NCBI RefSeq assembly: GCF_002234375.1
Contig: NZ_NMQV01000013.1
Coordinates: 124,001-188,000 of the forward strand
From: Pseudomonas fluvialis
GTDB lineage: Bacteria; Pseudomonadota; Gammaproteobacteria; Pseudomonadales; Pseudomonadaceae
Reading direction: 5' to 3'
Length of the DNA: 64,000 bases
In this document: positions 9,599-64,000 of the stretch, piece by piece
Position numbering within the stretch: position 1 is the first letter of the stretch
Layout of the letters: each line of letters begins with the position of its first letter
Notes under the pieces: model-generated
The model's input: only the letters and a program-made list of their open reading frames with translations
What the model was told of the DNA's origin: nothing
The model's database searches: none
Translations under genes and position numbers: made by a program

Positions 9599-9620
9599 AC
9601 CGCCGCCAGGCAAAGCACGC

Positions 9621-9650
9621 AAAAAAAAGGGCGACCAGAAGTCGCCCAAA
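9621..9650 (-). terminator. Rho-independent terminator of ccoM
   Basis: GGGCGAC (9629-9635) and GTCGCCC (9641-9647) form a 7-bp stem with a 5-base loop. On the minus strand it is followed by eight T residues (A-tract 9621-9628), so it terminates ccoM transcription. Confidence 0.85.
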
Positions 9651-9679
9651 TTGCCTTGCGTGCCTGTGAATCCGAAAGG

Positions 9680-9796
9680 TCAGCCCTGCTTGCGCTTGTG
9701 CGCGTCCTTCCAGATGAAATAGCCAAAGCCGCCCAAGAAAGCGACCATCAGTAGAACGGTGCCGATTCCAGCAAACACCACGGTATCCATGAACAT
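9680..9796 (-). CDS. ccoM: Small cbb3 cytochrome c oxidase subunit CcoM
   Basis: A 38-residue single-span membrane protein, too short for most gene finders. It starts MFMDTVVFAG, continues with a glycine-containing hydrophobic helix (about residues 5-28) and ends with the basic tail KDAHKRKQG. I recognise this as the CcoM type of small subunit found with the cbb3 oxidase of Pseudomonas stutzeri, which stabilises the complex in the inner membrane. GGAGGC lies four bases before the ATG, two ANR-type boxes lie upstream and a strong terminator lies downstream, so it is a free-standing single-gene unit. The ccoNOPQ operon is not in this window. I am confident the gene is real and fairly confident of the name. 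Confidence 0.85.
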   Translation of the reverse strand: MFMDTVVFAGIGTVLLMVAFLGGFGYFIWKDAHKRKQG

Positions 9797-9834
9797 GGCT
9801 GCCTCCTGCGGTTAGCCTGTGTGACATGGCTGCA

Positions 9835-9875
9835 GAGTAGGCGCAGGGTGGTCTGAGAAAATTGACGTTGATCAA
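9835..9875 (-). promoter_or_regulatory. ANR/FNR-dependent class II promoter of ccoM
   Basis: TTGAC-GTTG-ATCAA at 9862-9875 matches the ANR/FNR box (TTGAT-N4-ATCAA) with one mismatch. On the minus strand a -10-like TACTCT lies at 9840-9835, which puts a start near 9828. The box centre (9868.5) is then about 40 bases upstream, the classic spacing for activation by this regulator family. The predicted leader is about 30 bases. Low-oxygen induction fits a high-affinity oxidase subunit. Confidence 0.75.
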
Positions 9876-55379: not shown

Positions 55380-55772
55380 TCAGTCGCCGCGCTGTGCGGA
55401 CAACAGCTCGATCTTGTAGCCGTCCGGATCTTCGACGAAGGCCAGGATGCTGTTGCCATGCTTCATCGGCCCTGGCTCGCGGGTAATCTTGCCACCGCGC
55501 GCCCGGATGTCTTCACAGGCCTTGTAGACGTCATCCACTTCCAGGGCGATGTGCCCATAGCCGTTGCCCAGTTCATAGCCACTGACGCCCCAGTTATGGG
55601 TCAGCTCGATGACGCTGTTGTGCGCCTCATCGCCATACCCCACGAAAGCCAGGGTGAACTGCCCCTCGGGGTAGTCCTTGCGACGCAGCAGGGTCATGCC
55701 CAGTACTTCGGTATAGAAGGCGATGGACCTGTCCAGATCGCCAACCCGCAACATGGTGTGCAACAAACGCAT
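55380..55772 (-). CDS. gloA: Lactoylglutathione lyase (glyoxalase I)
   Basis: A 130-residue metalloenzyme that converts the methylglyoxal-glutathione adduct to S-lactoylglutathione. The ligands His5, Glu56, His74 and Glu122 fall at exactly the positions known for the E. coli nickel-dependent enzyme. The size and absence of the insert typical of zinc forms also suggest the nickel class. AGGAG precedes the ATG at 55772. It is convergent with the MCE gene and 24 bases downstream of mnmH on the same strand, but no functional link is implied. Confidence 0.95.
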
Positions 55773-55796
55773 GGTGATGCTCCTGTACTAAGGGCG

Positions 55797-56894
55797 TCAG
55801 CGCGTCAGGCGCTGACGCAGATACTCAATGACCGCCGCCTGCTCGCCGGCGAATTCGATGCGCGCGGCCTTGCTCTCGCGCTGATAGACGTACATCGGGT
55901 CGTAGTACTCGTTGAGCAACGCCTCGATCCAGGCGCGGTGCAGCGCCACTGCGCCGCTGCGCGCCTGCTCGTCGAGCGCCTGCGCCAGGATGGCCCGCAG
56001 CCGTGCATGACGCTCGCCGCCCAGGCGTTTCTGGATATTGTCCATGCTCTGCAGCAGGCGCGCGGCGAACAGGGCAAAACCCTGCTCCTCGCCATGCACG
56101 GCGAGGAACTCGGCGGCCAGGTCGATCACGTAGTCGCGCAGAATGCGTTCGACGCGATCGGCGACGCTATCTTCCAGCCACACCAGCGGGTAGTCCTGCA
56201 TGCCCTGGTGCAGCGATAGCGGCAGCGAGCAGGTGCCAATCAGCCGGCTCTCGTCTTCCAGCACGAACTGCTGCTGACCACGCGCGCGGCGCTTGAGCAG
56301 GTCGATGGCCAACTGGTTCTCGAAGTCGATCTGCGAAGGCTGGCCGGTGGCACGCTTGCCGAAGCTGGAGCCCCGGTGATTGGCGTGGCCTTCCAGGTCG
56401 ATGCTGTGGTCGAGCGCGGCGATCACCTCGGTCTTGCCGGTGCCGGTCATGCCGCCGACGATGACGAAATCGCACTCGGCCACCGCGCTGTCGAGCGTCT
56501 CGATCAGGAAAGTACGCATGGCCTTGTAGCCACCGATCACCCGTGGGTAGTCGATGCCGGCGTCGGCAAGCCACTGCTGGACGATCTGCGAGCGCAGGCC
56601 ACCACGGAAGCAGTACAGGTAGCCGTTGGGGTTGGCCCTGGCGAAGGCCGCCCAGGCCTCGACCCGCGCAGCCTTGACCTTGCCGGAGACCAGCTGGTGG
56701 CCCAGCTCGATGGCCGCCTGCTGGCCCTTCTGCTTGTAGCAGGTACCGACCTTCTGTCGTTCGATGTCGGTCATCAGCGGCAGGCTGATGGCGTTGGGGA
56801 AGGCGCCCTTGGTGAATTCCACCGGGGCGCGCATGTCCATCATCGGCAGGTCGTTGAGGAAGATGTCGCGGTAGTCGGCCGTGTTGTCGCGCAT
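55797..56894 (-). CDS. mnmH: tRNA 2-selenouridine synthase
   Basis: A 365-residue enzyme (SelU/YbbB) that replaces the 2-thio group of U34 in tRNA-Lys, -Glu and -Gln with selenium from selenophosphate. The N-terminal rhodanese domain carries the catalytic Cys95 in [10 protein letters not shown]. The P-loop domain starts [11 protein letters not shown] at 147-157 and serves the geranylated intermediate in known enzymes. Its ATG shares a base with the selD stop, so it is coupled to the gene that makes its substrate. Confidence 0.95.
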
Positions 56895-57928
56895 CACAGC
56901 ACCTCTACCGCATGACGCTGTCGTGCGGTCAGCTGGCCAATGGGCGCGAGGGTCAGGCCCAGCTCGGCGGCCACGGCGAGGAACTCGGCCTCGCCCTCCG
57001 GCGTCACGGCGATCAGCAGGCCGCCGCTGGTCTGCGGGTCGCACAGCAGATTGCGCTGCTGCTCGGAAATCGGCGCGATCTTCTCGCCGTAGCTGTCGAA
57101 GTTACGCAGGGTGCCACCGGGCACGCAGCCCTCGGCCAGGTAATAGTCCACCCCCGGCAGGCGCGGCACGGCGGCGTAGTCCAGCTGGGCAGTGAGGTTC
57201 GCGCCATCGGCCATTTCCACCAGATGGCCGAGCAGGCCGAAGCCGGTGACGTCGGTCATCGCCGTGACCCCGGCCAGCTTGCCGAAGCGCGCACCGGGCT
57301 TGTTTAGGGTGCACATCCAGTCGCGCGCCAGACCGACGTCCTGCTCGCGCAGCTTGGCCTTCTTCTCGGCGGTAGTGAGGATGCCGATACCCAGCGGTTT
57401 GGAGAGATACAGCTTGCAGCCGGCCGTGGCGGTGTCGTTGCGCTTCATGTGCTTCTTCTCGACCACACCGGTCACCGCCAGGCCGAAAATCGGCTCCGGC
57501 GCGTCGATCGAGTGGCCGCCGGCCAGCGGGATGCCGGCGGCGTCGCACACGGCGCGGCCGCCGCGGATCACCTCGCGGGCCACTTCCGCCGGCAGCACAT
57601 TGACCGGCCAGCCGAGGATGGCGATGGCCATCAGCGGGTCACCGCCCATGGCGTAGATGTCGCTGATCGCGTTGGTCGCGGCAATCCGCCCGAAGTCATA
57701 GGGGTCATCGACGATCGGCATGAAGAAGTCGGTGGTCGACACCACCCCGCGCTCCTCGTCCAGCGCGTAGACCGCCGCGTCGTCACGCGAGGCGTTGCCG
57801 ACCCACAGCTTCGGGTCGAGGTTCTGTGCGCCACTGCCGGCGAGGATCACCTCCAGCACCTTGGGGGAAATCTTGCAGCCGCAGCCGGCACCATGGCTGT
57901 ACTGGGTCAGGCGGATCGGTTCGCTCAT
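56894..57928 (-). CDS. selD: Selenide, water dikinase (selenophosphate synthase)
   Basis: A 344-residue enzyme that makes selenophosphate from selenide and ATP, the donor for selenocysteine and selenouridine. The N-terminal glycine-rich [10 protein letters not shown] loop has Cys16 as the catalytic residue with Cys18 and Lys19; this is the cysteine rather than the selenocysteine form. [28 protein letters not shown] and [12 protein letters not shown] are the family motifs. It is followed by overlapping mnmH. An extended -10 promoter inside an inverted repeat lies upstream. No selA or selB is visible in the window. Confidence 0.95.
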
Positions 57929-57956
57929 CGCAGGCTCTCGGCAATCGGCAAAAAAC

Positions 57957-57982
57957 AGGCAGCGATTCTAGCAAAGCTGCCT
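57957..57982. promoter_or_regulatory. Inverted repeat centred on the selD -10
   Basis: AGGCAGC (57957-57963) and GCTGCCT (57976-57982) are exact inverted copies 12 bases apart. The spacer holds, on the minus strand, an extended -10 TGC-TAGAAT (57973-57965), about 35 bases before selD. An operator here would block the promoter. The sequence could also fold as a hairpin in a longer transcript from the gene upstream. Confidence 0.55.
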
Positions 57983-58025
57983 GCGCTTTCCTGAATCCCT
58001 GAGCCGCCCTGACTTTTGCCGGCAC

Positions 58026-58856
58026 TCACCGCACAGGCGTATCGCCAGGTGCCGGCTGATTGTCACGCCACCAGAAGGTGCTCACCTCCTCGACAGGGTA
58101 GCGTTGCCCGTCATAGCGCAGCCGCTGAGTGACCCGGCGCAGCAGCGGCTCCTGCGGCCCGAACTGGACGCTGGCGGTGAGCTGCAGATCGGCATAGCCG
58201 GCGGCGCGCAACGGCCCGACGCTCAGCGTGAGGCGGGCCTGCTCCATGGCAAAGTCGCTCTCCTGCACGCAGGCCGTACCCTGCACAGTGGTCCACAGGC
58301 GCAAATGGCTGGCAAACACCGGGCGCAACCGCGCACCTTCAGGCACCAGCAGCGTCAACAGGTCGTTGAAACCGCCCTCCGGGCAACTCGGGCCACGCGC
58401 CACACTGTTCAGCAGCAGACCGAAAGCCCGCACGCCCGGAGCCAGGTGATAGCGAGCGGTATCCAGCCACAGGCTGTCCGGACCGATCTCCAGCAGCACA
58501 TCTTCGCCAAGCGGGCTGTCGTAGCGCTCTCGCAAGCGCCCCTCGGGCATCGCCACCCGCCCCACCAGCAGCTGCAGGTTGCGCCCAGCGTCGGGCAGCA
58601 GTGCCTCGCTGTCTTGATAGGCCAGTGCCACTACAGCCAGCTGGGGATCATCAGGCCAGGGCTTGCAGGCCGCGGCCTGCAAGGGAGCCAAGTAGGGTGT
58701 GCTGGCGTCAGGCACGCGCCAGCCGGACTGCCCCAACTGCTTGGCCAGCGCATCCAGCAACGCCTGACTGCAGCGCTGCGCCTCACCGGCCGCCGCCGGC
58801 CCGATCAGCCACAGGCTCAGCCAGCCAATCGCCAGCCAACGACATCTAGCCTCCAT
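58026..58856 (-). CDS. Exported protein of unknown function next to selD
   Basis: A 276-residue protein with a clear signal peptide (MEARCRWLAIG..., cleavage after PAAA near residue 24) and four cysteines in the mature part (near residues 29, 64, 159 and 194) that may form disulfides. The body is mixed beta strand with aromatic and proline residues and no membrane helix. I do not recognise a family. AGGAGGT is an excellent ribosome site for ATG 58856. It lies 97 bases upstream of selD on the same strand and is divergent from the ABC importer, so a role in the selenium locus or envelope is possible, but this rests on position only. Confidence 0.7.
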   Translation of the reverse strand: MEARCRWLAIGWLSLWLIGPAAAGEAQRCSQALLDALAKQLGQSGWRVPDASTPYLAPLQAAACKPWPDDPQLAVVALAYQDSEALLPDAGRNLQLLVGRVAMPEGRLRERYDSPLGEDVLLEIGPDSLWLDTARYHLAPGVRAFGLLLNSVARGPSCPEGGFNDLLTLLVPEGARLRPVFASHLRLWTTVQGTACVQESDFAMEQARLTLSVGPLRAAGYADLQLTASVQFGPQEPLLRRVTQRLRYDGQRYPVEEVSTFWWRDNQPAPGDTPVR

Positions 58857-58951
58857 TGCCCTACCTCCTGATGCGTCGCGCAGCCGCACATACTACAAGC
58901 CAAGGCCCGGCGCCTGCTGTCGATCAGCTATCAGCCCGCGCACAGCCCTCG

Positions 58952-58957
58952 TATAAT
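58952..58957 (+). promoter_or_regulatory. -10 element of the ABC importer operon
   Basis: A perfect TATAAT lies 92 bases before the binding-protein gene. The best -35 (TATCAG, 17 bases upstream) is weak, so an activator may be needed. The start would be near 58964, giving a leader of about 85 bases. Confidence 0.6.
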
Positions 58958-58981
58958 GTCGGCGCTCTTTACCCTACCGAA

Positions 58982-59024
58982 CAAAAGGTCATGGCCCATG
59001 CGACCGTGACCTTTTGAATTTTTT
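58982..59024 (+). promoter_or_regulatory. Terminator-like hairpin with alternative pairing in the importer leader
   Basis: CAAAAGGTCA (58982-58991) and TGACCTTTTG (59007-59016) are perfect complements (10 bp) followed by AA and six T (59019-59024), the shape of an intrinsic terminator. The left arm can instead pair within GGTCATGG...CCATG-CG-ACC (58987-59005), which would break the terminator. This is an attenuator layout; it may also be a DNA operator. Confidence 0.6.
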
Positions 59025-59049
59025 CCGCTATTGAACCGGAGAACTTTCC

Positions 59050-59901
59050 ATGCTCAAGCGCACGCTCGCGTTAGCCAGTGCCATGGCGCTGTCCCTGTCC
59101 GCCACACTCGCCCAGGCCGCCGATGTATTGAAAGTCAGCGCCATCCCCGATGAAGCACCCACCGAACTGCTGCGCAAGTTCCAGCCGCTGGGGGCCTATC
59201 TGGAACAGCAACTGGGCATGCCTGTCGAGTTCACGCCGGTCGCCGACTACCCTGCGGTGGTCGAAGCACTGGCCAGCGACCGCATCGATCTGGCCTGGCT
59301 GGGTGGCTTTACCTTCGTCCAGGCGCGCCTGAAGACCGGTAATGCCCTGCCGCTGGTACAGCGTGCCGAGGATGCCCGTTTCACCAGCAAGTTCATCACC
59401 GCCAACCCGGACGTGCAGTCGCTGGCCGACCTCAAGGGCAAGAGCTTTGCCTTCGGCTCGGTGTCCTCGACCTCCGGCAGCCTGATGCCGCGTTATTTCA
59501 TGCTGCAGGACGGCATCAAGCCGGAAAGCCATTTCAGCCGCGTCGGCTATTCCGGTGCACACGACGCCACCGCCGCCTGGGTGCAGGCCGGCAAGGTGGA
59601 TGGTGGGGTGCTCAATGCCAGCGTGTGGGACAAGCTGGTCGCCAACGGCACCATCGACAGCAACAAGGTACGGGTCTTTGCCACTACCCCGACCTACTTC
59701 GATTACAACTGGACCGTGCGCGGCACCCTCGACCCGGCGCTGACCGCGAAGATCAAGGCCGCCTTCCTGGCACTCGATCCGGCGATTGCCGAACACAAAG
59801 CGATCCTCGACCTGCAGGCAGCCAGCCGCTTCATCGAAACCGCCCCGGAAAACTACCAGGGCATCGAAGAAGCCGCGCGCGCCGCCGACCTGCTGAAATG
59901 A
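59050..59901 (+). CDS. PhnD-type ABC binding protein, putative selenium oxyanion importer
   Basis: A 283-residue periplasmic protein with a signal peptide (1-23, cleaved after LAQA) and a phosphonate/phosphite-binding-type fold: [58 protein letters not shown]. The SSTSG loop is where this family holds its oxyanion. Next to selD such proteins have been annotated as putative selenate-binding; I rely on memory and context for this. GGAG lies upstream of ATG 59050. Its stop overlaps the ATPase start (ATGA). Phosphonate or phosphite remain alternatives. Confidence 0.85.
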
Positions 59902-60695
59902 GCCTGCGCCTGAGCGGCGCGCACCTGCAGCACAGCCACAGCGTCCACGCCCTGCGCGGCGTGGACCTGACTATTGCGCGCGGTGAACGCGTCGCCATCA
60001 TTGGTCCTTCCGGGGCCGGCAAGTCGAGCCTGCTCAACCTGCTGGCCACCGCGCTGCCGCCCAGCGCAGGCCAGGTCGAGGTGCTTGGCAGGGCGCCCTG
60101 GCGCCTGTCTGCCCGCCAGCGCCAGCAACTGCGTACCCAGATCGGCCTGATCCATCAGGCACCTCCCCTGCCAGCGCGCCAACGCGTGGTGACCGCCGTA
60201 CTGGCCGGCAAGCTCGGCCAGTGGAGTCTGCTGCGCAGCCTGGTCAGCCTGCTCTACCCACTGGATATTCCCGGTGCCCGCGCCGCTCTCGCACGCCTGG
60301 ACCTGGCCGACAAGCTGTTTGCCCAGTGCCAGCAACTGTCCGGCGGACAACTGCAGCGGGTGGGCATTGCCCGCGTGCTGTACCAGGCGCCACAACTGCT
60401 GCTGGCCGACGAGCCGGTGTCGGCCATGGACCCGGTCTTGGCCGGGCACACCCTGAGCGTGCTCTGCCAGCATGCACAGCGCGAGGGCATCACCCTGGTC
60501 GCCAGCCTGCATGCGGTGGAGCTGGCCCTGGCGCATTTCCCGCGGATCATCGGCGTGCGTGAGGGGCGGATTGCCTTCGACTGCCCCGCTGCGGAAGTCG
60601 ACCAGCCGCGCCTCGACGCCCTGTACGCCAACCAGCAACTGCTCACCCCAACCCCGCCCAGCCCGGCGCCGAGTCTGCAGATTCCACGATGCTGA
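59898..60695 (+). CDS. ABC importer ATPase (PhnC-like)
   Basis: A 265-residue cytoplasmic ATPase. Walker A is GPSGAGKSS near residues 35-43, the signature is [15 protein letters not shown], and Walker B is [12 protein letters not shown]. The H-loop is SLHAVELA. It begins [22 protein letters not shown]; the long upstream extension of the frame overlaps the binding protein and is not coding. Overlaps of four bases before and seven after bind it tightly to its operon. It energises the two permeases downstream. Confidence 0.92.
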
Positions 60696-61516
60696 GCCCG
60701 CACCCGCGTGATCCGGCGGCCATGCCGCGCCTGCTCCTCAGTGTGCTGGCGATTGCCCTGCTGTGGCCCGGCGTGCAGCTCAGCGAGCTGGATCTCGGCG
60801 TGCTGCTGGCCGCCGACAGCCAGAGCGAAATGGGTCGTTTCGTCGCCGCCTTCTGGCCGCCTGCGCATCAGGACGAGTTCCTGCAACTGCTCGCCCAGGC
60901 CACCCTGCAGACCCTGGCCATCGCCACCGCCGGCATGGTCCTGGCGCTGCTCCTGGCCATTCCGGCGGCGCTGCTGGCCAGTCGCGCGCTGTCGCTGTCT
61001 GCCGCCAGTCGTGGCGGGCAGCCCAGCTGGCTTGGCCAGGCCGTACGTTGGCCGGTACGCGGGCTGCTGATCTTTCTGCGCAGCGTGCCGGAAATCGTCT
61101 GGGCGCTGCTGTTCGTGCGCGCCGTGGGCCTGGGACCGACCGCCGGCGTACTGGCCATCGCCATTACCTATGCCGGCATGCTCGGCAAGGTCTATGCGGA
61201 AATCTTCGAGTCGGTCGAGCAGCGCCCCATGCATGCCCTGCTGCAGGCCGGCAGCGGCCGCCTGAGCGCCTTTGCCTACGGCATCCTGCCCAATGCCGCC
61301 GCGGAGTTGACCTCCTACACCCTATACCGCTGGGAATGCGCCATCCGCGCTTCGGTGGTAATGGGCTTCGTCGGTGCCGGCGGCCTGGGCCAGCAGCTTG
61401 ACCTGTCGATGCGCATGTTCGCCGGCGGCGAAGTGGCCAGCATGCTGCTCACCTTCCTGCTGCTGGTCTTGCTGGCCGATGCGCTGAGCCGCCTGTTGCG
61501 CGGGAGGCTGGCATGA
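60689..61516 (+). CDS. ABC importer permease 1 (PhnE-like)
   Basis: A 275-residue inner-membrane protein with about six helices. Motifs [22 protein letters not shown] and the EAA-type coupling segment [20 protein letters not shown] are those of PhnE-type permeases. The helix after [17 protein letters not shown] is the first membrane span. It overlaps the ATPase by seven bases and the second permease by four (ATGA). Confidence 0.9.
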
Positions 61517-62280
61517 AGCGCCTGGGCAACCTGGCCCTGCTACTGGCCCTGGGCCTGGGCATCTGGGCGTCGTTTGCCTACCTGGGCCTGCAACTGGGCA
61601 GTCTGTTCAGCGAGCAAAGCCTGACCCAGATGTCCCGCTATGCAGTGCGTTTCCTGCAACCGGACCTGAGCAGCACGCACCTGCAGGCAATTGCCCGCGG
61701 CACCCTGGAAACCCTGGCCATGTCGGCACTCGGCACCCTGCTGGCGGCGCTGCTCGGCCTGCTCCTGGCACTGCCAGCTGCCGGGCGCTGCGGTGGCCTG
61801 GCCGAGGCCCTGGCGCGCCTGCTGCTCAATGCCCTGCGAGCGATTCCCGAACTGGTCTGGGCCGCGCTGATGGTACTGGCCGCCGGCCTGGGGCCGAACG
61901 CCGGCACCCTGGCGCTGGCCCTGCACACGGCCGGCGTACTCGGCCGGCTGTTTGCCGAAGCACTGGAAAATACCCCGGCGGCCCCCGCCGAGGCGATTCG
62001 CCTGCAAGGCGGCGGTCAGCTGGCGGCGTTCTGCTATGGCACCCTGCCCAATCTCTGGCCGCAGTTGCTGGCCTACACCCTGTATCGCTGGGAAAACAAC
62101 ATCCGCATGGCCAGCGTGCTCGGCTTCGTCGGCGCAGGCGGCCTGGGGCAGATGCTCTATGTCAGCCTCAGCCTGTTCCAGGAGGCGCAAGCCAGCACGG
62201 TAATCCTCGCCATGCTGGCACTGGTGCTGGCGGTGGATGCCCTCAGCAGCTGGAGTCGCCAGCGCTGGGTGCGCCAGTAG
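61513..62280 (+). CDS. ABC importer permease 2 (PhnE-like)
   Basis: A 255-residue inner-membrane protein, paralogous to permease 1: ALRAIPELVWAALMVLAAGLGP and GGGQLAAFCYGTLPNLWPQL correspond to the same segments. The pair presumably forms a heterodimeric channel, as in PhnE1/PhnE2 systems. It is the last gene of the operon; a short hairpin lies just beyond its stop. Confidence 0.9.
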   Translation: MKRLGNLALLLALGLGIWASFAYLGLQLGSLFSEQSLTQMSRYAVRFLQPDLSSTHLQAIARGTLETLAMSALGTLLAALLGLLLALPAAGRCGGLAEALARLLLNALRAIPELVWAALMVLAAGLGPNAGTLALALHTAGVLGRLFAEALENTPAAPAEAIRLQGGGQLAAFCYGTLPNLWPQLLAYTLYRWENNIRMASVLGFVGAGGLGQMLYVSLSLFQEAQASTVILAMLALVLAVDALSSWSRQRWVRQ

Positions 62281-62298
62281 CTGAGCGCGGCCGCTCAG
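62281..62298. terminator. Short hairpin between convergent genes
   Basis: CTGAGCG-CGGC-CGCTCAG, a 7-bp perfect stem that starts right after the permease stop and covers the stop of the convergent acyltransferase gene. There is no T-tract on either side, so termination is unsure. Confidence 0.35.
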
Positions 62299-64000
62299 GC
62301 CCGTTCGCCCCGCAAGGCCTGCACTTCGGCCTGCAGACGGGCGCAACTGGCTTCACTGGCCGGCAGCGGCTGCCCGGCGACCAGCCCGATGCGTGACCAC
62401 AGGCGGCGGAACAACCCGCGCTGCGGGGCCCGGCTGAAGAAACTGCCCCACAACCCCTGCAGCGCCACGGGAATGACCGGCACCGGATTGTCCTCGAGGA
62501 TGCGTTCGATTCCGCCCCTGAAGGTGTTGATCTGGCCATCGCTGGTCAGCTTGCCTTCCGGGAAGATGCACACCAGCTCACCGCACTGCAGGTACTGACT
62601 GATCCGCTCGAAGGCCTGCGCATAAATCCGCTCGTCCTCGTGCCGGGCGGCAATCGGCACCGCGCCGGCCGTACGGAAGATGAAATTAAGCACCGGCAGG
62701 TTGTAGATCTTGTAGTACATGACGAAGCGCATGGGCCGGCGCACCGCGCCGGCCAGCAGCAGGGCATCGACAAACGACACGTGGTTGCACACCACCACGG
62801 CGGCGCCTTCGTCGGGGATCACCTGCAGGCCACGCGCCTCGACGCGGTACATGGAGTGGCCGAGCAGCCACACCAGGAAGCGCATGCTGAATTCCGGGAC
62901 GATCTTGAAGATGTAGCAGTTCACTGCCACGTTCATCAGCGACACGACGAGGAACAGCTCGGGCACCGAGAGACCCGCCACGCTGAGAAAGAGGATCGAC
63001 AGCAGCGCCGAGGCCACCATGAACAAGGCATTGAGGATGTTGTTGGCGGCCACCACGCGAGCACGTTCCTGCTCGGCGGTACGCGACTGGATCAGCGCAT
63101 ACAGCGGCACGATATAGAAGCCGCCAAACAGCCCGAGGCCCACCACGCAGCCCAGCAACGTCAGACTACCCGGCTGGGCCAGCAGGCTCAGCCAGTCATA
63201 GGCGCTGTCCGCCGGTGCCAGCTGCCCGGAGCCGGCCCACAGCAGAATGCCGAACAGGCTCAGGCCGATCGAACCGAACGGCACCAGACCGATCTCCACC
63301 TTGCCGCCCGACAGCCGCTCGCAAAGCATCGAGCCGAGGCCGATGCCCAGCGAGAACAGGGTAAGGATCAGCGTCACCACACTTTCATCGCCATGCAGCC
63401 AGTCCTTGGCAAAGGCCGGAATCTGCGTGAGGTATACCGCGCCGAGGAACCAGAACCAGGAATTGCCGATCAGCGAACGTGACACCGCCGGACGCTGCCC
63501 CAGCCCCATGCGCATGATTTGCCAGGACTGGCGGAGGATATTCCAGTCCAGTGCCAGCTGCGGCAGCGAGGCATGGGCAAAGGGAATGAAGCGGCTGGCC
63601 AGGTAGCCGAGCACCGCCACCCCCACCACACTGCCCGCCACCAGCGCGGCATAGTCGCTGCTGGCCATGAGCAGGCCAGCGCCAATGGTGCCACCAAGAA
63701 TCGCCAGGAAGGTGCCGGTTTCCACCAGCGCATTGCCGCCCACCAGCTCGTCCTCGCGCAATGCCTGGGGCAGGATTGAGTATTTCACCGGGCCGAACAG
63801 TGCCGACTGGCTGCCCATCAGGAACAGCACCAGCAGCATCAGCGGCAGGTTGCCAAGCAGCACCCCCACGGCCCCGGCCAGCATGATCAGCACCTCGCCC
63901 AACTTGATGGCGCGGATCAACGCATCCTTGGCGAACTTCTCGCCAAACTGCCCGCCCAGCGCCGAGAACAGAAAGAACGGCAGGATGAACAGCAGCGCAC
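62295..64000 (-). CDS. MFS transporter-acyltransferase fusion (N-terminus cut by window edge)
   Basis: The frame runs open from the right edge, so the N-terminus is missing. The upstream part is an MFS lysophospholipid-transporter (LplT-like) domain with many helices. The C-terminal about 220 residues are a PlsC-type acyltransferase with HVSFVD (HX4D: NHVSFVDALLLAG) and FPEGKLTSDG (substrate-binding). The protein ends soon after the acyltransferase (QAEVQALRGERA), without the AMP-ligase domain of the larger Aas-type fusions. It likely imports and reacylates lysophospholipids at the inner membrane. The true start is outside the window. Confidence 0.88.
   Translation of the reverse strand, partial: ALLFILPFFLFSALGGQFGEKFAKDALIRAIKLGEVLIMLAGAVGVLLGNLPLMLLVLFLMGSQSALFGPVKYSILPQALREDELVGGNALVETGTFLAILGGTIGAGLLMASSDYAALVAGSVVGVAVLGYLASRFIPFAHASLPQLALDWNILRQSWQIMRMGLGQRPAVSRSLIGNSWFWFLGAVYLTQIPAFAKDWLHGDESVVTLILTLFSLGIGLGSMLCERLSGGKVEIGLVPFGSIGLSLFGILLWAGSGQLAPADSAYDWLSLLAQPGSLTLLGCVVGLGLFGGFYIVPLYALIQSRTAEQERARVVAANNILNALFMVASALLSILFLSVAGLSVPELFLVVSLMNVAVNCYIFKIVPEFSMRFLVWLLGHSMYRVEARGLQVIPDEGAAVVVCNHVSFVDALLLAGAVRRPMRFVMYYKIYNLPVLNFIFRTAGAVPIAARHEDERIYAQAFERISQYLQCGELVCIFPEGKLTSDGQINTFRGGIERILEDNPVPVIPVALQGLWGSFFSRAPQRGLFRRLWSRIGLVAGQPLPASEASCARLQAEVQALRGERA

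Follow-up and report, generated by a model that had tools for sequence, protein, structure and literature searches.

In a 64,000-nucleotide stretch of Pseudomonas fluvialis DNA (contig NZ_NMQV01000013.1, positions 124,001 to 188,000; hereafter the window), which comes from a Pseudomonas-like genome of 3.29 Mb, a four-gene operon lies divergent to the selenium genes selD and mnmH. We propose, with a probability of roughly 0.6, that this operon encodes an ATP-binding cassette (ABC) importer that is dedicated to a small oxyanion of selenium and feeds SelD and MnmH; the likeliest cargo is hydrogen selenite (HSeO3-). Judged from gene content and genomic company, selenium is very probably the cargo; if it is, analogy with solved homologues makes selenite its probable form. 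The periplasmic binding protein would close on a pyramidal XO3 anion through a Tyr, a Ser-Thr-Ser stretch, a His and an Asp acceptor, with a second Tyr as a cap, and a PhnC-like ATPase and two PhnE-like permeases would bring the oxyanion in. Imported selenite would be reduced to selenide in the cell, SelD would turn selenide into selenophosphate, and MnmH would place the selenium in the wobble uridine of tRNA. What the comparisons lead us to infer is that selenium is the physiological cargo, that it arrives as selenite rather than selenate, that the transporter works as an importer, and that reduction takes place inside the cell. The locus itself is ordinary for the family of its binding protein (TIGR04553). 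The interest lies in a co-occurrence with selenium genes that spans two phyla, in selenoneine neighbours, in pocket evidence against the family's selenate label, and in a family shared with the picocyanobacterial protein PhnD1.

To examine co-occurrence we took 249 Pseudomonadota genomes, sampled evenly, and applied the profile cut-off to TIGR04553. The family was found in 21 genomes, selD in 65, mnmH in 55 and phnJ in 34. Carriers of TIGR04553 had selD in 20 of 21 cases, compared with 45 of 228 non-carriers (Fisher test, 3e-12), and mnmH likewise in 20 of 21, compared with 35 of 228 (6e-14). For phnJ the figures were 1 of 21 and 33 of 228 (0.33), and the sole phnJ-positive carrier (G190) has a second, lower-scoring binding protein near its phnJ. 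The importer was absent from all 12 genomes with selD and without mnmH, and present in 20 of the 53 that have both (p = 0.012). By label, the 21 carriers span eight families. The importer tracks selD rather than carbon-phosphorus lyase (ptxD was not searched), and the selenium link that the original prediction drew from layout now extends to co-occurrence in two phyla.

This co-occurrence is cleaner in the Cyanobacteriota, where a sample of 117 genomes held TIGR04553 in 10, mnmH in 11 and a SelD match in 20. All ten carriers had mnmH, as against one of the 107 non-carriers, and all ten also had a SelD match. Among the 49 genomes with photosystem I (psaAB+), the importer was found in 10 of 11 with mnmH and in none of the 38 without it (p = 1.3e-9); eight more genomes carried selD and lacked photosystem I, mnmH and the importer. 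A separate set comprised 80 importer loci, 77 of them cyanobacterial, from which we picked 48 genomes (46 cyanobacterial). Those omitted were mostly Prochlorococcus single-cell assemblies or short contigs; the genomes used were of unstated completeness, and several assemblies were single-cell or metagenomic. Here mnmH was found in 45/48 and a SelD match in 39/48 (44/46 and 37/46 in the cyanobacterial subset). TIGR04553 was also found in two further genomes, whose classes we take to belong to the Chloroflexota.

The importer is a shared neighbour of two selenium pathways: relatives of it adjoin selD and mnmH or genes for SenA, SenB and EgtD (the identities of SenA and SenB rest on NCBIfam names). 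Eight of the 21 Pseudomonadota carriers have selD within ~10 kb of the binding-protein gene (G000, G054, G070, G138, G174, G202, G207 and G019). In G054 and G207 selD, with mnmH after it, runs divergently from the adjacent binding-protein gene; the window has this arrangement too, but with an exported-protein gene in between. In G202 the two are co-directional and the importer sits inside a selenoneine (sen) cluster, where the window has mnmH instead. The order in G202 is SenA-like, SelD, binding protein, ATPase, two permeases and EgtD, then SenB on the other strand, with SenB at 374.2 bits (cut-off 300), EgtD at 340.7 (290.9) and the SenA-like protein at 379.4, below its cut-off of 420. In three genomes of one genus (G070, G138, G174), genes for an oxidoreductase-SelD fusion and, next, for SenB precede the importer; SenB scored 390.1 bits in G070 and 415.6 in G174, and the G138 copy was found by tblastn only (81% identical). 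Within 9.5 kb, G019 holds EgtD (345.8 bits), selD, and SenA-like (34%) and SenB-like (38%) matches, both by tblastn only. In an uncultured bacterium (L097), SenA-like (29%) and SenB-like (40%) tblastn matches precede the importer. A tblastn search found none of SenA, SenB and EgtD in the window. The SelD fusion and/or mnmH were linked to the importer in five of the 77 cyanobacterial loci, four of them Cyanobium- or Synechococcus-like (L058, L071, L075, L077) and one from Moorena bouillonii (L089).

What, then, is the binding protein? It passes the NCBIfam model TIGR04553, 'putative selenate ABC transporter', at 361.4 bits (cut-off 250), and the selenium idea for this family thus already exists as a database label. 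In open-access literature we found neither an experiment behind the label nor a mention of the accession; one genome paper mentions the 'selenate' label briefly and takes it to mean selenite export (PMC13077682). The phosphonate-binding PhnD model TIGR03431 scored 171.3 bits, below its cut-off of 261.1, and the window genome has no phnJ match; a PhnD-type phosphonate role was rejected on these grounds.

An AlphaFold model of the binding protein had a mean predicted local distance difference test score of 89.5. The nearest solved structures, both by sequence and by fold, were those of picocyanobacterial PhnD1 (7s6g, 5lq5 and 5lq8), with 7s6g the best fold match, and the solved PhnD1 sequences themselves pass TIGR04553 (333.9 and 302.4 bits). 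The window protein agrees with 7s6g at all 14 pocket positions compared. It also keeps the published ligand contacts (Tyr, Ser-Thr-Ser, His, Asp and capping Tyr), the Asp and Asn residues by which the cap is held, and the SSTSG loop noticed earlier. Across 101 family sequences (the 21 from Pseudomonadota and the 80 from the separate set of loci), Tyr41, the Ser-Thr-Ser, His153 and Phe85 were invariant, and position 200 was Asp in 95 and Asn in six. PtxB (5o2j, 5jvb, 5lv1) shares the fold, the Tyr, the Ser-Thr-Ser, the His and the capping Tyr, but is ~31% identical and has Tyr for Phe85, Gln for Asp200 and Ser or Ala for Asn171. Phe85 was absent from the three solved PtxB proteins and from the nine relatives below threshold for which loci were available. 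The window protein thus carries a pocket signature of Phe85 with Asp or Asn200, which was derived here and lies outside the curated definition of TIGR04553, and not the Tyr85 and Gln200 of the three solved PtxB proteins. The capping Tyr was lost in one sequence of the 101, where Thr replaces it; this is the binding protein of L051 (G143:C1:24000-41000), from the one carrier that lacks both selD and mnmH, and its surroundings gave no match to an ATPase or permease. From its sequence, this protein possibly has a different ligand or role.

The picocyanobacterial oxidoreductase fusions scored above the SelD cut-off of 125 bits in RCC307 (171.5), one Prochlorococcus (132.5) and one Cyanobium (185.2), all 14 cyanobacterial fusions that were aligned keep the Cys and Lys that in the window SelD are C16 and K19, and the cyanobacterial mnmH matches were above cut-off. 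A selenouridine pathway in picocyanobacteria is plausible. NCBIfam, however, names the same three fusions 'fusion_not_SelD' (841.5, 969.5 and 866.8 bits, respectively; cut-off 700), and those of Moorena and Picosynechococcus fall below this cut-off. The picocyanobacterial fusions of L132, L133 and L135 carry this label despite their kept Cys and Lys, and the label may merit review.

The naming of these fusions is one of several points that weigh against selenite import. The Fisher tests treat genomes as independent and ignore kinship. No selD was found within ~10 kb of the binding-protein gene in 13 of the 21 Pseudomonadota carriers, and for 72 of the 77 cyanobacterial loci the flanks, many of them short, contained no SelD or mnmH. 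The genome of one carrier (G143) lacks both genes. The importer was missing from 33 of the 53 Pseudomonadota genomes with both selD and mnmH; it is therefore not required for selenouridine, and other selenium routes must exist. At the pocket, phosphite is the tightest ligand measured for PhnD1, and this affinity in a protein of the same family is partial evidence against a selenium role, of a kind that the original prediction named as refuting, although it was measured on homologues and the main texts of PMC10284923 and PMC5700983 hold no selenium ligand (no word beginning with 'selen' occurs in either). In addition, the capping Tyr, to which phosphite makes a P-H...pi contact, would be faced by a lone pair in selenite, which may therefore fit less well than one would expect from shape.

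Selenite is pyramidal and near neutral pH is mostly HSeO3-; selenate is tetrahedral and fully deprotonated. The original prediction suggested selenate or a related oxyanion as ligand, and selenate is the ligand in the NCBIfam label; it would likewise be reduced in the cell and feed SelD. All of the evidence from selenium context serves it equally, the Asn found at position 200 in six of the 101 sequences removes the acid, and 7s6g was crystallised with phosphate, which indicates that the fold accepts a tetrahedral XO4 (PMC10284923). We nevertheless consider a selenate importer unlikely. PhnD1 makes three hydrogen bonds to each of three oxygens and one to the fourth position, and binds phosphite at least 10-fold better than phosphate (PMC10284923); its Asp, which the window protein shares, suggests a mono-anionic ligand (PMC5700983). 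By analogy, a PhnD1-type pocket probably holds a pyramidal, probably mono-protonated XO3 anion. We prefer selenite over selenate because such an anion suits the pocket, and although the binding protein is a member of TIGR04553, its pocket argues for selenite rather than for the selenate of the family label.

The same contacts could serve a phosphorus compound. An importer of phosphite, phosphate or a small phosphonate, with only incidental company of selenium genes, would agree with the identity of the pocket contacts to those of PhnD1, which binds phosphite with dissociation constants of 0.05-4.3 uM and phosphate with 7-182 uM (PMC10284923). Every one of the 97 sequenced picocyanobacteria in a database had PhnD1, and PhnDCE1 was proposed as a constitutive phosphate transporter (PMC10284923); another study states that the in vivo function of PhnD1 is unknown (PMC5700983). 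However, the first of these sources cites studies in which the PhnD1 genes were not induced under phosphorus starvation, and the two picocyanobacterial strains tested did not grow on phosphite (PMC10284923). The scarcity of phnJ among carriers, the association with mnmH and selD across two phyla, and SenB and SelD as neighbours also speak against a phosphorus importer. No ptxD was seen among the open reading frames scanned at 55380-63920, in which no search was aimed at that gene. We give a phosphorus role a slim chance, below that of selenate. A large organoselenium cargo was thought unlikely, since PhnD1 as published has a small pocket with a cap.

A third proposal concerned the exported protein encoded between selD and the importer (minus strand, 58026..58856; likely start ATG at 58856), which the original prediction took as a possible new selenium component; it could, for example, have been a periplasmic selenium-handling protein. 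Its description as a protein of unknown function holds, as its sole NCBIfam match was NF052451, 'PA3715 family protein' (113.4 bits, cut-off 70). Its signal peptide was judged by eye, and it matched no Pfam family and no solved structure significantly. We surveyed 198 genomes of the bacterial family, taking one locus per carrying genome with ~1.5 kb on each side (30 of the 35 listed places; five second copies are outside the count). The PA3715 family was found in 30 of the 198, and selD or the binding-protein gene lay within ~1.5 kb of it at one of the 30 loci, that of the window. Three genomes of the same genus with selD and mnmH (G054, G130, G237) gave no PA3715-family match, and in G054 selD and the binding-protein gene are directly divergent with no exported gene between them. 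In G058, G146 and G190, the PA3715 gene and the importer or selD are both present but distant or on separate contigs. In favour of the proposal is its position between selD and the importer in the window; we judge it a passenger in this layout, and a functional part in the selenium unit is very improbable.

An open-reading-frame listing of the window bore out the positions of all reading frames, as well as the layout originally described. On the minus strand, selD (56894..57928; selenophosphate synthetase, NF002098, 586.2 bits, cut-off 299) overlaps mnmH (tRNA 2-selenouridine synthase, NF008751, 587.6 bits, cut-off 361) by one base, with the junction TGATG. The mnmH reading frame opens at 57044; we took the gene as 55797..56894 rather than 55797-57044 because the family match begins only at residue 51. 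Cys16 and Lys19 of the window SelD align with the Cys/Lys pair that has an active-site role in SelD. With both genes above their NCBIfam cut-offs, the window has the selenouridine (SeU) trait. On the plus strand, the genes for the binding protein (59050..59901), the PhnC-like ATPase (59898..60695), permease 1 (60689..61516) and permease 2 (61513..62280) each overlap the next, by 4 (ATGA), 7 and 4 bases, respectively. The ATPase matched PF00005 and scored 198.9 bits with TIGR02315, below the cut-off of 266.1. With TIGR01097 (cut-off 216.7), permease 1 fell just short at 213.2 bits and permease 2 passed at 243.9. Among relatives, two single long reading frames (L033:11429-12895 and L035:5796-7427) overlap both permease matches and were candidates for fused permeases, but neither had a Pfam hit and the argument was dropped.

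The upstream region said to be shared by all these genes is shared by the exported-protein and binding-protein genes, whose divergent starts are 193 bp apart (intergenic region 58857..59049). As selD sits behind the exported-protein gene across a 97-bp gap, a promoter region shared by selD and mnmH is only a possibility. A -10-like TATAAT was seen by eye at 58952-58957. Between it and the binding-protein start lies a perfect inverted repeat, AAAAGGTCA-N15-TGACCTTTT (58983-59015), with a T run close after. It was matched once in the window and never in 100 shuffles, and the RNA of this region folds better than shuffles (z -2.5). By eye, the repeat was absent from 12 upstream regions of relatives, and a conserved operator was dropped as evidence; an attenuator or an inserted palindrome is possible. 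Just 5' of the binding-protein start, a leader resembling TTTTTTCCGCTATTGAACCGGAGAA was seen in the window (59019-59043) and in L039, L040, L042-L044 and L046; by eye, it appears kept in Pseudomonadaceae relatives beyond the needs of a ribosome-binding site alone. In G130, a LysR-type regulator gene (L045:6979-7845) directly precedes the binding-protein gene on the same strand, and its product might respond to the importer ligand. Elsewhere in the window, at 9620-9835 on the minus strand, Rfam matched PhrS, a small RNA of Pseudomonas, at full length (170.3 bits, gathering score 37).

PhnDCE1 is among the closest of the systems already described: its binding protein passes TIGR04553, is the best fold match and agrees at 14/14 pocket positions. 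It differs in being published as phosphite-binding and a probable phosphate transporter; two permease genes and a place next to selD-mnmH set the window operon apart. YedE has been proposed from genome context as a candidate selenium transporter, but is, by its description (PMC5322559), an unrelated membrane protein and not an ABC importer. We found no link of PhnD1 or TIGR04553 to selenite import in open-access literature. New here are the co-occurrence in two phyla, the selenium and selenoneine neighbours, the placing of PhnD1 in the same family with identical contacts, and the exclusion of the exported protein from the unit.

The TIGR04553 family is a concrete candidate for a selenium uptake system. 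According to reviews from 2022 and 2026, a (specific) high-affinity transport system for selenium is still to be identified (PMC9312934, PMC13188914). We suggest more tentatively that all members of the family, PhnDCE1 included, may be importers dedicated to selenite, which would serve tRNA selenouridine and, in organisms that make it, selenoneine; on balance we lean slightly away from so broad a claim. If it is true, it would supply the high-affinity bacterial system that the reviews call unidentified, and would correct a 'selenate' label already used in a genome paper (PMC13077682). On that view PhnD1 would bind phosphite, at nanomolar to micromolar levels, because phosphite mimics the shape of hydrogen selenite. 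This would solve a published paradox, in which cells unable to use phosphite have a constitutive transporter that binds it. PhnDCE1 of marine picocyanobacteria, now tentatively a phosphate transporter, would thereby gain a physiological role.

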